DNA of 64,000 nucleotides from Parcubacteria group bacterium ADurb.Bin192 (lineage in GTDB: Bacteria > Patescibacteriota > Patescibacteriia > 2-12-FULL-60-25): assembly GCA_002070095.1 (NCBI GenBank), contig MWCR01000001.1, positions 186,001-250,000 of the forward strand, read 5' to 3'. Shown one piece after another: positions 6,301 through 23,030 of the stretch. Within the stretch, counting starts at the first letter, position 1. Every line of letters starts with the position of its first letter. The position numbers and the translations under genes are program-made. The notes under the pieces were generated by a model. That model worked only from the letters and a program-made list of their open reading frames with translations, was not told the DNA's origin and did no database searches.

Positions 6301-9300
6301 CCGAATTTAAAACACTCAAATGCGGACCCTCCATGGTGAAATAATTTACATCTCCTGTAAAAAATCTTAAAATATCTTCATCCGGTAAATACTCAGTTGT
6401 GATTCCAGTATCATGCGTTACATCCCAGATTGCATTCGGAATTCCACCATTCAAAGCCTTCCATTCGCTTCCATTCCAGAAGAACGGTGTGGAAGAAGCT
6501 GTATTGTAGACCATAGCACCCGCTTGCAAACCGCTGGCCGGATTCAAAGCGTATTGACCGAGCATAAGTTGCGCGTTTACACGTGCGTCGCCTACCAAAT
6601 CCAAACGATATGCCGGAGTGGTTGTCCCGATACCAACATATCCCGTACTTGTAATTCTCATCCTTTCACTACCTCCGTTTTGGCCGATTGTAAACGCTCC
6701 ATCAGCGACCTGTGCCAAATCCCAAGTGGATGTGCCCACATGAACGGTTCCGGCCCAAAGATCGGACCAACGGTTGGTGGTACTGCCCAAGGAATAAAGA
6801 TTGGTTGTCGCCGGCAACAAACTTGAATTGGCTCTGGCCGTAAAGGTGATTGTATCTGAAGTTGCATCGCCCAGCACCGTATTACCGCCCACGTTCAAGC
6901 TGACTCCGGCCAATAAATCCAAACTATCCGTATCCAAGGTCATTCTGCTGGTTGGGGCTGTATAACCGCCCCCAACTTGGAATCTGATTAATGTGCCGGT
7001 ACCCACTGAACCGATAACTAAATTTTTATCCGTGGCCAACACACCATTGCCCGCCCAAGACGGTACGTAAAAATTAGATCCGTATTTACCGAAATAAATA
7101 TTATTGGTGAAATCCGCTCCACTGCCCTTAAGTTCCAAAACCGCTCCCGCGTAGTTGCTAGCATCATTGGTATTGACCGCCTTAAAACCTGTTAATGTAC
7201 TGGCGCTGTTATTTGTAACATTAACTTGATAGACAGCTGAATCAGTTGGAGACAATACATTGGTGTTCTTTTGCCAATGATTGGAATCCGCACCCGCTAA
7301 AGCAACCCAGCCCGTATTTCCTACATCCGTTGTCTTAACATACACTTGTTGGCCCGATCCCGTGCCATCAGTTCTATAATACATACTGCCGCTATAAGCC
7401 GTAACTTTGGCTTCCGGCGTACTGGTTCCCACCGACATTTTGATGTTATTTGTAAATTCACTGGCACCGCCGTTTCTTAATTGTAAGATGGGCACATTAT
7501 AATTTGTAGCCAAAATACTGAAAGCTCCTTGACTGGCCGATCCGGGGATCTGCAAAGCCATCTGGCTATAATCTATATAAAAATTACTGTCCCGCGTGCC
7601 CGATCTTTGATACCCGAATTCAAAAGACTCCGTGTTATTGTTCCAATTCATATAAGCTCCTGAACCATTTTCCGGATCACTTGTATCATCAGTAAAATAC
7701 ATTCTGGCGCCAAGATCTCCAAATTGTTCCATGGTTTGAATAGCCAACCCTCCTCCGTTAACAGCATTGGTCAAAGCCAAACTCGTTTCCCATTGATCGG
7801 TTCCCGGATTCAAAATCTCAACCGGATTGGCACTGTTTAAAGTATAAATCTGTCTGCCTAAAGCCGAACCTCCGGCATCATAAGCGGCTTGCAAGGTTGT
7901 AGTGGCAGATACTATGGCATTATCAACATAAGCTTTGTCAACCAAAGATCTGGCTACAAAATCCGCTGAATAATCACTTTCATAACGTAAACCATATCTT
8001 GAACCGGCAGCGCGAAAATCATAAAATTGATTATCGGCTCCAATATGTAAAACCGCATTATTTCCATACAGATCAACTTGACTGGTGCTCGCATCTATTT
8101 CAATGCCATGCTGGGAAACCATTTTGAAATTATCCATGAATTCCAAATAATGGTTGGTATTCCCTTCATCATTATTAACAGCTCCAATTCTTAAATTGCC
8201 GTTGGTATTGTAATCCGGTTGAAAATATAGAAAATTTGCAGGATTGCTTTGATCTGCAAACCTTAATTCATAACCATCAGCAATGGTAACATCGCGATCT
8301 TCGGGAATAAGACCGTCAGAATTATAAATGTTATAAACCAAATCCGATGATGTGGCCCAGCTCAATGTTCCGGCGCCATCTGTAATTAATACCTGATTGT
8401 TAGTACCATCGGCACTTGGCAGAGTCCAAATTGTATTACCCGTTAAAGCTGTAGGCGCAATAAAGCCAACATATTCACCGCCGAATTGATCCATCAATCT
8501 CAATTCACTGTGTGATAATTCTATGGCATTGGCCCCGTAGTTAACTTGCATGGATGTTCCAATGCCTCCGTAATCCAAATCACCAAAACCAACTACCAAA
8601 TCATTGCCAGCCACGCTGCCTCCGGCTCTAAAGACATTTTCACCATTCTCGTCTCTAAAATTGGCTATGTTCAGCATGCCCGAAATACCGGCAACTGAAA
8701 ATGAAGAAGCCTCATGAGAACCCGGCCCTACCATTAACAACGATACCAATGGATTATCTGTTCCGATTCCTACATAACCATCATTTCTAATATACATCCT
8801 CTCAACTCCCGCTGTATCAAATCTAATGTAATCCTCGTCAGCCGATTCCTCTACCTGCACACCCGTGTCATGATCCTCATCCCACAATGAACTGCGTACA
8901 TCTTCGGCCGTAGCCACGGTTCTCCATTGCGTGCCATCCCAATAATTGATGGTGGATGAAGAAGTTTTATACACCAATGAGCCGGCTTGATAACCGCTGA
9001 CCGGTAAAGACGCATAACGTCCCAACATGAATTGACCGGACAAACGTGAATCACCGGCAACATCCAAGCGATAAGCAGGAGTGGAGGTTGATAAACCAAT
9101 ATTACCATCACCGGCAACAGTCATTCTTTCATTACTATTAGTATATATTCTATAGGGTACATTTCCGTTAACCATAAACCCTGCGTCAAAAGGAGATGAA
9201 AAGGTTTTACCGGTCACGACTCCGTTGTTGGCGAATTCAATAAAAGCCGCGTCAGATCCATTGGCATGATCTGAATTTATGTAAATCCCCGCATCTTGCC

Positions 9301-20536: not shown

Positions 20537-21475
20537 ATGAAACTCTCCCATCATCTGCGCGATTTCCTGATTTATCTGGAAATTGAAAAAGGACGATCTC
20601 AAATGACCATCCGCAACTACGAATTTTATTTATTGCGTTTTATCGAATGGGCCAAAGATCCTAAAACCGAAGACATTAATGACAAAATGATGGTTGATTA
20701 TCGTCTTTATCTTAATCGCTTGGAAGATCCGACCAGGGGCCTGCTTAAAAAAAATACACAAAATTATCACTTAATCGCTTTACGTTCATTCTTTAAATAC
20801 TTGATCCGACACGACGTAAAAATCATGGCCCCCGAAAAAATTGAGCTGGCCAAACAAAACGCCAGAGAGCCAGTTTTCTTGGAGGCTAATGACATGGAGC
20901 GCCTGCTCCAAGCCCCGCTCCAAACGAACGACGTCGGCATCCTGCAGGCGCGCGATAAAGCTATTTTGGAATTATTTTTTTCCACGGGCATGCGCGTCTC
21001 CGAGTTAGCCAACCTAAAAAAAGAGCAGGTCAATTTAAACCGTGAAGAATTTACCATCCATGGCAAAGGCGACAAACTGCGGATTGTCTTTTTATCGCAT
21101 CAGGCCAGACATTGGATGAAAAACTACCTCAAGATGCGGGAGGATGAATCTCCGTACATGTTCATCCGGCATGACAGGGCTGTTAAAAACACCGCTCAAA
21201 ACTCGGATAAAGAAGCCGGCCCCATCACTCCCCGGTCCATCGAGAGGCTGGTCCAACGCTACGCGCTCATGGCCGGCATCACTAAACAAATCTCGCCTCA
21301 CAGCCTAAGACATTCTTTCGCCACCGATCTTTTGATGAACGGCGCGGACCTGCGCAGTGTGCAATCCATGCTTGGGCATTCTTCCATTACCACCACTCAA
21401 ATTTATACCCATATTACCAACCAGCAGCTGCGCGATGTGCATAAAGCCTTTCACGCCAAAAGAAGAAAAGAATAA
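20537..21475 (+). CDS. xerC: Tyrosine recombinase, XerC/XerD-like
   Basis: 312 residues. The N-terminal SAM-like core-binding domain (about 1-100) precedes a catalytic domain with all expected residues: Arg153 in GMRVSEL, Lys180 in GKGDKLR, His255/Arg258 in SPHSLRHSFA, His281 in LGHSS and nucleophile Tyr290 in QIYTHI. Length and lack of an arm-binding domain fit Xer recombinases, which resolve chromosome dimers at dif, rather than phage integrases. A TATTAT lies 9 bases before ATG, so the leader may be very short. The split between xerC and xerD cannot be made from sequence alone. Confidence 0.9.
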   Translation: MKLSHHLRDFLIYLEIEKGRSQMTIRNYEFYLLRFIEWAKDPKTEDINDKMMVDYRLYLNRLEDPTRGLLKKNTQNYHLIALRSFFKYLIRHDVKIMAPEKIELAKQNAREPVFLEANDMERLLQAPLQTNDVGILQARDKAILELFFSTGMRVSELANLKKEQVNLNREEFTIHGKGDKLRIVFLSHQARHWMKNYLKMREDESPYMFIRHDRAVKNTAQNSDKEAGPITPRSIERLVQRYALMAGITKQISPHSLRHSFATDLLMNGADLRSVQSMLGHSSITTTQIYTHITNQQLRDVHKAFHAKRRKE

Positions 21476-22074: not shown

Positions 22075-22103
22075 TCGACAAAAGTCAGTATTTCCACTAG
22101 ACT
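22075..22103 (+). promoter_or_regulatory. Promoter of tRNA-Arg(TCT)
   Basis: TCGACA, 17 bases, TAGACT, about 90 bases before the tRNA. An AT-rich inverted repeat lies between. Confidence 0.55.
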
Positions 22104-22198
22104 GCACCTATCAAAATCAATTACCAAATTAACAAATATAAAATACGAAGTACACCCTAATTTGATAATTTATATTTGAAATTTGTTAATTAGTTCAT

Positions 22199-22275
22199 GC
22201 GCCCTTAGCTCAGCCGGATAGAGCAACAGCCTTCTAAGCTGTAGGTCGTTGGTTCGAATCCAACAGGGCGCACCA
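22199..22275 (+). tRNA. tRNA-Arg (anticodon TCT)
   Basis: Acceptor arms GCGCCCT/AGGGCGC, D arm AGCTCAGCCGGATAGAGC, anticodon loop CTTCTAA with TCT at 22233-22235, T arm GGTTCGAATCC, and an encoded CCA. The 3' end (from 22259) is repeated at 22530. Confidence 0.95.
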
Positions 22276-22428
22276 CTCCCCGTCGCTCCACTTAGCGCTT
22301 TGCGCATTGTGAAGCTATGGGGAGTGTCCCTCGTAACTGAACCCAATGAAGCTTTATGCGAAGTTGGGTTAGTGAAGTGGGGCATCCCCCTTTCGCATAA
22401 AGCTACGGGGGATTTTTCTTTACCTGTT
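22274..22428 (+). ncRNA. Structured RNA-like element, copy 1, ending in a terminator
   Basis: Starts at the tRNA CCA. Helices: CACTCCCC/GGGGAGTG (22274-22281/22319-22326), AACCCAA/TTGGGTT (22340-22346/22364-22370) and ATCCCCC/GGGGGAT (22384-22390/22407-22413) followed by TTTTTCTTT. The loops of the last two are complementary over 13 bases (22350-22362 with 22392-22404), so a loop-loop contact or an alternative fold is possible. No ORF supported. Repeated as copy 2. Confidence 0.5.
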
Positions 22429-22529
22429 GGATGAGAACGGGAAAGTGGTAGGAAACGGTAGTTTCTTACATGCGGAGGAGAGTTATTCGAGAACCAAAAG
22501 GTTCTTGAAAGAGCGCAGCGATGTGAGAT
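22429..22529 (+). ncRNA. Spacer between the two structured elements
   Basis: 101 bases able to form GAAAC/GTTTC, GAGAACC/GGTTCTT and an enclosing CTTACAT/ATGTGAG helix. May be part of the same transcript or unrelated. No gene seen. Confidence 0.25.
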
Positions 22530-22698
22530 TCCAACAGGGCGCACCACTCCCCGTCGCTCCACTTAGCGCTTTGCGCATTGTGAAGCTATAGGGAGTGTCC
22601 CTCGTAACTGAACCCAATGAAGCTTTATGCGAAGTTGGGTTAGTGGAGTGGGGCATCCCCCTTCGCATAAAGCTACGGGGGATTTTTCTTTACCTGTT
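22530..22698 (+). ncRNA. Structured RNA-like element, copy 2, with duplicated tRNA 3' end
   Basis: Direct repeat of 22259-22428 at an offset of 270-271 bases, with few substitutions and one deletion. It begins with the last ~17 bases of tRNA-Arg. Helices are kept: CACTCCC/GGGAGTG, AACCCAA/TTGGGTT and the terminator ATCCCCC/GGGGGAT (22655-22661/22677-22683) followed by TTTTTCTTT. The 13-base loop complementarity extends to 14 here. Confidence 0.5.
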
Positions 22699-22705
22699 AC
22701 TTTTA

Positions 22706-22730
22706 ATAAAAAAAGCGCCCGACAGAGGGC
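22706..22730 (-). terminator. Terminator of the 22737 gene
   Basis: Minus-strand GCCC/GGGC stem followed by GCTTTTTTT. Confidence 0.6.
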
Positions 22731-22736
22731 AAGAGA

Positions 22737-23030
22737 CTAGGTAAAAACGTCGGCTACGGCTTCGCAGAGTTCATCCAGATTGAACGGGATCAATCTGACA
22801 CCCTTGGCTTGCAAGGCAGACAAGGCGTTCCGCACTCTATTTTCGATACGCGCGGCCGCTGTACCGGATGCTTGAAAACAGGGCTCTGTAGATCTGGACG
22901 GTAAGGTCACCCGTTGGTGATAATCGGCCGAGGCATAATAAAGTTCGTGTACCAAGGGAACAAGTTCCGGAGAACGCAGGGCCTCGGCCAAGACGTGCCG
23001 CACATGATTATTAACCGTGGGATGAGCCAA
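22737..23030 (-). CDS. Small hypothetical protein with TTG start
   Basis: About 97 residues from TTG 23030. That start is chosen because AAGGAGG lies 6 bases before it and because the promoter at 23051-23079 excludes the ATG at 23069. Helical and soluble. The C-terminal half (RIENRVRNALSALQAKGVRL) parallels QRIKSAIALLAELGIELG of the next unit, so the two may be paralogues. Function unknown. Confidence 0.6.
   Translation of the reverse strand: MAHPTVNNHVRHVLAEALRSPELVPLVHELYYASADYHQRVTLPSRSTEPCFQASGTAAARIENRVRNALSALQAKGVRLIPFNLDELCEAVADVFT

Follow-up and report, generated by a model that had tools for sequence, protein, structure and literature searches.

The described systems that come closest to the element reported here are integron cassettes with their attC sites, small dispersed hairpin elements, islands integrated at tRNA genes, and target-primed retroelements. 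Like integron cassettes, the element would be mobile without a gene of its own, and a site acting as a folded single strand, in the manner of attC, would have inverted ends, stem mismatches and a variable terminal structure. In the element, however, it is the interior that is conserved, the ends differing from tRNA to tRNA, and the target is a tRNA rather than attI. REP/BIME sequences, hairpins derived from IS200/IS605 and MITEs are likewise short, structured, gene-less, multi-copy and tied to gene ends, but many carriers of the element have no matching Y1 transposase, and we know of no target copying at the ends of REP/BIME, IS200/IS605-derived elements or MITEs. tRNA-integrated islands, integrative satellites and casposons also insert at tRNA 3' ends, leave direct copies of the tRNA end and keep the tRNA functional, whereas the element is ~120 nt long, carries no gene, occurs at every isotype and bears an extra, inverted copy of its target. 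For target-primed retroelements, long target duplications of variable length and fold-back products at one end are conceivable, but reverse transcriptase is absent from several carriers of the element (e.g. G000, G003, G010).

The locus lies in a window of 64,000 nucleotides from Parcubacteria group bacterium ADurb.Bin192, and the parts of the locus from the tRNA to the second terminator region are on its forward strand. Here the insertion target, an intact tRNA-Arg(TCT) gene (22199–22275), opens a long direct repeat, with 22256–22428 recurring at 22527–22698 with 4 differences over 173 positions (3 substitutions and 1 indel, 98% identity). The copies are 173 and 172 nt long with an offset of 271/270, in agreement with the tandem duplication of ~170 bp reported in the preliminary description. 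The duplicated segment starts right after GTTC (22252–22255) with the stretch from the T-loop to CCA, here called T3 (copy 1, 22256–22275); T3 copy 2, a direct copy of the tRNA-Arg 3' end to CCA with one change, is found at 22527–22546. Each T3 copy runs on into a terminator region (22276–22422 and 22547–22698), the second of which ends in CCTGTT (22693–22698) before the flank ACTTTTAATAAAA. Both regions hold the three helices already described, namely hairpin A (CACTCCCC..GGGGAGTG), hairpin M2 (AACCCAA..TTGGGTT) and terminator M3 (ATCCCCC..GGGGGAT plus a T-run), and the duplicated unit has a fold z of -7.7.

Modules of the A/M2/M3 type also stand behind Arg(TCG), Ile, Lys, Leu and other tRNAs of the same genome (G000), where hairpin A occurs without the other modules behind tRNA-His and M2 is also found away from tRNAs, within longer inverted repeats. 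The repeated unit is therefore a tRNA end followed by an ordinary modular terminator region. A complementarity of 13 nt between the last two loops is present in both copies, but the kissing contact that had been proposed from it is not supported, as the complementary run shrinks to 5 nt in the Ile, 7 nt in the Lys and 4 nt in the Leu module copies and the loops are part of a dispersed hairpin family. The repeat was also rejected as an RNA family in itself, its modules being dispersed terminators whose loop pairing is absent from other copies. The loop TTCGCATAAAGC or near variants of it are common to terminators behind many tRNAs in this genus and its relatives (22387–22422 in the window; L010–L028); a DNA-uptake signal was considered for this recurring loop and dismissed, since just 14 exact copies in 1.44 Mb are too few. 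Solitary copies of M2 (22340–22372 in the window) lie off tRNAs inside inverted repeats of the GTCATTCCTGCG..GCAGGAATCCA type (L035, L036, L037, L039, L040 and L041 in G000), and these M2-bearing inverted repeats are a second dispersed repeat family.

Between the repeat copies lies an element of 124 nt (22423–22546). The core of this stretch (22429–22526) had been taken as no more than a spacer. Together with its borders, it forms an element in its own right that belongs to a large family, and it is this stretch, not the repeat copies, that makes up the structured family. The left end of the element (22423–22438) is the reverse complement of the tRNA-Arg T-arm with two changes (CCTGTTGGATGAGAAC against the reverse complement CCTGTTGGATTCGAAC). 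The interior (22439–22522), conserved in the phylum, contains hairpin P2 (GTAGGAAAC GGTA GTTTCTTAC; 22448–22469), nearly all pairs of which change on both sides with pairing kept, and hairpin P3 (TTCGAGAACC AAAA GGTTCTTGAA; 22486–22509), which is supported by covariation. It is followed by GTGA (22523–22526) in place of the tRNA's GTTC, a change of TC to GA, and then by T3 copy 2. As the left end is the inverted start of the target, it pairs with the right-hand target copy as a stem, P1, around the interior, and because the right end has GTGA where the target has GTTC, P1 ends in tandem G.A mismatches, here against the GAAC of the left end. Such a GTGA-type junction is found in 93 of 117 copies, about five have the target's reading unchanged, and junctions differ by 0–3 nt among copies. 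A third interior hairpin, P4, can be seen by eye before the right end in many copies.

The fold is borne out by covariation. In 42 copies, double-sided changes occur at 31 of the 34 pairs of P1, P2 and P3, with 91.8% of cells paired and a covariation score of 0.532, against 0.201 when shuffled and at most 0.158 when slid. Among 69 copies from other families, 33 of 34 pairs are double-changed, 89.8% are paired and the score is 0.641 (0.227 shuffled). These alignments lean towards structure because they were fitted to the model, although the excess over both controls is large. Compensatory base changes of the kind looked for in structured RNAs are thus present. G-U pairs exceed A-C mismatches in P2 and P3 and not in P1; their share is 4.7% in P2 and 3.3% in P3, falling to 0.4% and 2.6% in the distant set, while tRNA stems at the same loci have 6.0%. 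This scarcity of G-U leans towards a role of P2 as single-stranded DNA, and does not in itself settle the choice between DNA and RNA.

A first covariance model, built from 7 copies, gave 52 matches in 15 of the 41 genomes of the taxonomic family, and a second found the element in 47 of the 286 genomes of the class. In a search of the phylum (Patescibacteria), 37 of 380 genomes carried it, 23 of them outside the class and with Candidatus Magasanikbacteria among the carriers. Where flanks were inspected, 124 of 143 copies immediately follow a tRNA encoded on the same strand (45/51, 54/66 and 25/26 in the three sets), and all 20 tRNA isotypes occur as targets. One genome (G059) has at least 19 copies, each, with few exceptions, behind a different tRNA. 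Tandem copies are found at L225 and L209. Three copies in three genera (L111, L188, L226) lie antisense at the 5' end of a gene that we take, from its translated start, to be lepA, the start of which is duplicated. At these sites, as at tRNAs, it is the target that is directly repeated (37 bp and perfect in L111, longer and diverged in L188 and L226), and the left end is the inverse of the target, extending in L188 and L226 up to a motif, GNTCRA, that is common with the T-loop; the same two copies show the TC to GA change seen at tRNA sites. A copy at L292 (G615:C14:1397-1530) has no tRNA and a P1 of GGTCACCTTTGC/GCAAAGGTGACC, and is possibly another non-tRNA target. At L192 (G076:C42), the element adjoins a tRNA with anticodon CTA, named Pyl by ARAGORN.

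The ends of the element follow the local tRNA. The inverted T-arm matches the tRNA beside it at 11.66 of 14, compared to 9.25 for other isotypes (maximum 9.50 in 200 permutations), and the direct acceptor copy matches at 10.17 of 12, compared to 6.38 (maximum 6.63 in 200 permutations). The inverted left end corresponds to the first 9–16 nt of the duplicated target, which extends from the T-loop onward over the tRNA 3' end and, where well preserved, the terminator, for about 26–75 bp or more; insertion leaves the target tRNA working. At 88 tRNA loci, T3 is directly repeated on both sides of the element, and in 13 of these the terminator is duplicated too (at least 80% identity over the following 35 nt); L199 has a perfect target repeat of 59 bp, and one of 37 bp is found in L194. 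Most copies resemble the tRNA as far as CCA if this is encoded and as far as the discriminator base if it is not, and in some genomes with encoded CCA the copy has CAA or ACA there. The stop at the discriminator base is not expected from a cut at a random distance and counts against the main model developed below. The acceptor part of copy 2, which has no partner in P1, shares 91% identity with the tRNA (perfect in 56 of 88) and still 89% where the terminators show no likeness, while the terminators of the two copies mostly lack any relation (0.65 against 0.54 shuffled). That this part is kept would not be expected if a scar decayed neutrally, and copy 2 may therefore have a use; either the insertions are recent, with fast replacement of terminators, or copy 2 has been retained as a usable tRNA 3' end.

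The interiors, on the other hand, resemble each other across tRNAs. The 84-nt interior in the window is 95% identical to a stretch behind tRNA-Ala(TGC) of G000, the ends of which match tRNA-Ala instead; in this genome, tRNA-Met and tRNA-Lys are also followed by a copy, a diverged one in the case of Lys, and truncated left ends follow Arg(TCG), Thr(CGT) and possibly Gln(CTG). Among 99 copies, 44 have their nearest interior in their own genome, 34 of these at another isotype, whereas shuffling gives a mean of 4.5 and a maximum of 13. Some nearest neighbours share the isotype (18 against 5.4), and part of the signal is therefore vertical. In six congeners, which are other species and not isogenic strains (G001, G003, G004, G005, G006 and G008), tRNA-Arg(TCT) has neither the element nor a second tRNA 3' end downstream. 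Ends that fit the local tRNA, interiors that are alike across the tRNAs of one genome and the six empty sites together indicate a mobile element. We consider it probable that 22423–22546 represents a copy of a mobile element without genes which is spread over the phylum and enters tRNAs of any isotype at their 3' ends, and occasionally lepA at its 5' end, with its terminal stem rebuilt for each target. The duplication in the window is the target duplication around this insert, the tRNA-Arg 3' end and terminator hairpins having been copied; the integration scar that had been proposed stands to that extent, and the tyrosine recombinase it was linked to is not implicated.

Larger segments and phage genes are found at some copies. 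In L151 (2700-5060; G003:C2), a 490-aa ORF without Pfam match sits between near-identical T3-terminator-element-T3 copies at a tRNA-Ser, 2.08 kb apart with ~1.9 kb between them, an arrangement that looks like a gene cassette. In L230 (G163:C33:10300-12400), ~950 bp with small ORFs without Pfam match separate P2 from P3 of a single element. TGCGGAG stands on either side of this insert, and a target duplication of ~68 bp surrounds the whole. In L152 (~7050-7760; G006) and L153 (~7000-7600; G059), phage-like genes extend to the 3' end of a tRNA-Ser and stop there, shortly before an element; those of G006 include DNA-packaging protein gp3, and one in G059 appears holin-like by eye. The borders in L152 and L153 are probably prophage attachment sites.

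These observations bear on the other ways in which the locus can be read. Simple local duplication of a single terminator, or its doubling in the assembly, was also raised in the preliminary description and would fit two adjacent copies of 98% identity, but it is hardly credible given that the joint between them holds a conserved element of like anatomy in 47 of 286 class genomes, independent assemblies included, and in further genomes of the phylum. The two copies might instead be attL and attR of a shrunken island or phage, driven by an integrase, at the tRNA 3' end. The T-loops and 3' ends of tRNAs are common targets of integrases, prophage genes border copies at tRNA-Ser in G006 and possibly G059, and there are the one-ORF segment between near-identical copies in G003 and the ~950 bp within a copy in G163. 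Nevertheless, we find such a remnant very unlikely, as one and the same interior is found at all 20 isotypes and at lepA, which is not how site-specific integrases behave, the phage borders fall at copy 1 rather than at the interior, the junctions vary by 0–3 nt, and the inverted copy is left without account.

Another reading is an RNA device of the host, in which a trailer cotranscribed with the tRNA, its left end free to pair with either the T-arm or the copy of it, would control how the tRNA folds, is processed at its 3' end or is terminated. This would explain why the element lies directly downstream on the tRNA strand and why conservation extends to the acceptor copy and not to the terminators. 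Covariation in P2 and P3, where G-U is tolerated better than A-C, and a predicted fold of the whole transcript, which pairs the left end with the tRNA 3' half, also speak for it. This explanation seems rather unlikely in view of the patchy presence of the element (37 of 380 phylum genomes), the occurrence of the same tRNA without it in congeners, its spread between unrelated isotypes inside one genome, the antisense insertion at lepA and the low share of G-U among P2 pairs in the distant set (0.4%, where tRNA stems at these loci have 6.0%). Group I-like splicing with the left end as internal guide was also rejected, since in the commonest form the joints fail to restore the tRNA (GTGAGATTCC against GTTCGAATCC) if the intron ends in G, and there is no Rfam match.

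For a mobile element of this kind, the sequences suggest a route of insertion. The recognised object would be the folded single strand of the element, with P1 as a double-stranded replica of the tRNA T-arm. One strand of the target would be nicked at the T-loop and the element strand joined there; fold-back copying of the target would then yield the inverted copy and rebuild P1, and a second cut beyond the terminator, with repair of the stagger, would yield the direct duplication. The resulting order would be L-[t r]-rc(t)-interior-[t r]-R, and the moving enzyme would work in trans. The native flank in the window starts with CCTGTT (22693–22698), identical to the first six bases of the inverted copy, and in L120 the flank likewise starts with the start of the inverted copy, GTGCA, as expected if a short complementarity primes the fold-back. 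A mechanism outside the known ones, in which a folded strand is joined to a T-loop nick and the target is copied back in reverse so that each copy makes a stem identical to its host tRNA, is put forward here tentatively, as possible rather than probable. The kept acceptor of copy 2 would then mean that the element can be taken out again, from the DNA or from the RNA, copy 2 providing the working tRNA 3' end.

No autonomous version of the element was found, and no transposase or recombinase is linked to it. The presence of reverse transcriptase (RVT_1) does not match that of the element and, being missing from carriers G000, G003, G004, G005, G010 and G019, it was rejected as the engine; the same applies to Y1 (HUH) transposase, which is missing from carriers G003, G004, G006, G010, G031 and G060. 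The neighbouring recombinase gene in the window (20537–21475) is XerC/D-like and falls below the cut-offs of dedicated integron-integrase models. A PF00589 match of similar score and size is found in 7 of 7 genomes tested, and a Xer gene also adjoins tRNA-Arg(TCT) in congeners without the element. For these reasons Xer is not implicated, its position reflecting ancestral synteny, and it was rejected as the integrase.

An Rfam cmscan of 22100–22800, up to E = 1, returned just the tRNA, a tRNA-antisense overlap (RF04354) and a weak chance match outside the element, with no membership among group I/II introns, ribozymes, T-box or other families. The attC core boxes R''/R' (RYYYAAC/GTTRRRY) occur in 0 of 117 copies, by which membership among integron attC sites was rejected. 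Phages, plasmids and viral contigs gave no match to the element, and no description of it was found in a literature search of partial coverage, which took in few subscription journals.

To our knowledge, few mobile elements have been described in the minimal genomes of Patescibacteria. If the reading given here is true, the phylum has a class of very small mobile elements with ends adapted to each target entered, which would account for the duplicated tRNA ends in Patescibacteria. Under the model, any new copy should bear an inverted T-arm taken from the tRNA that it has entered, a prediction that sequence data alone can address, and the family would provide a clean search image for the enzyme that moves it.
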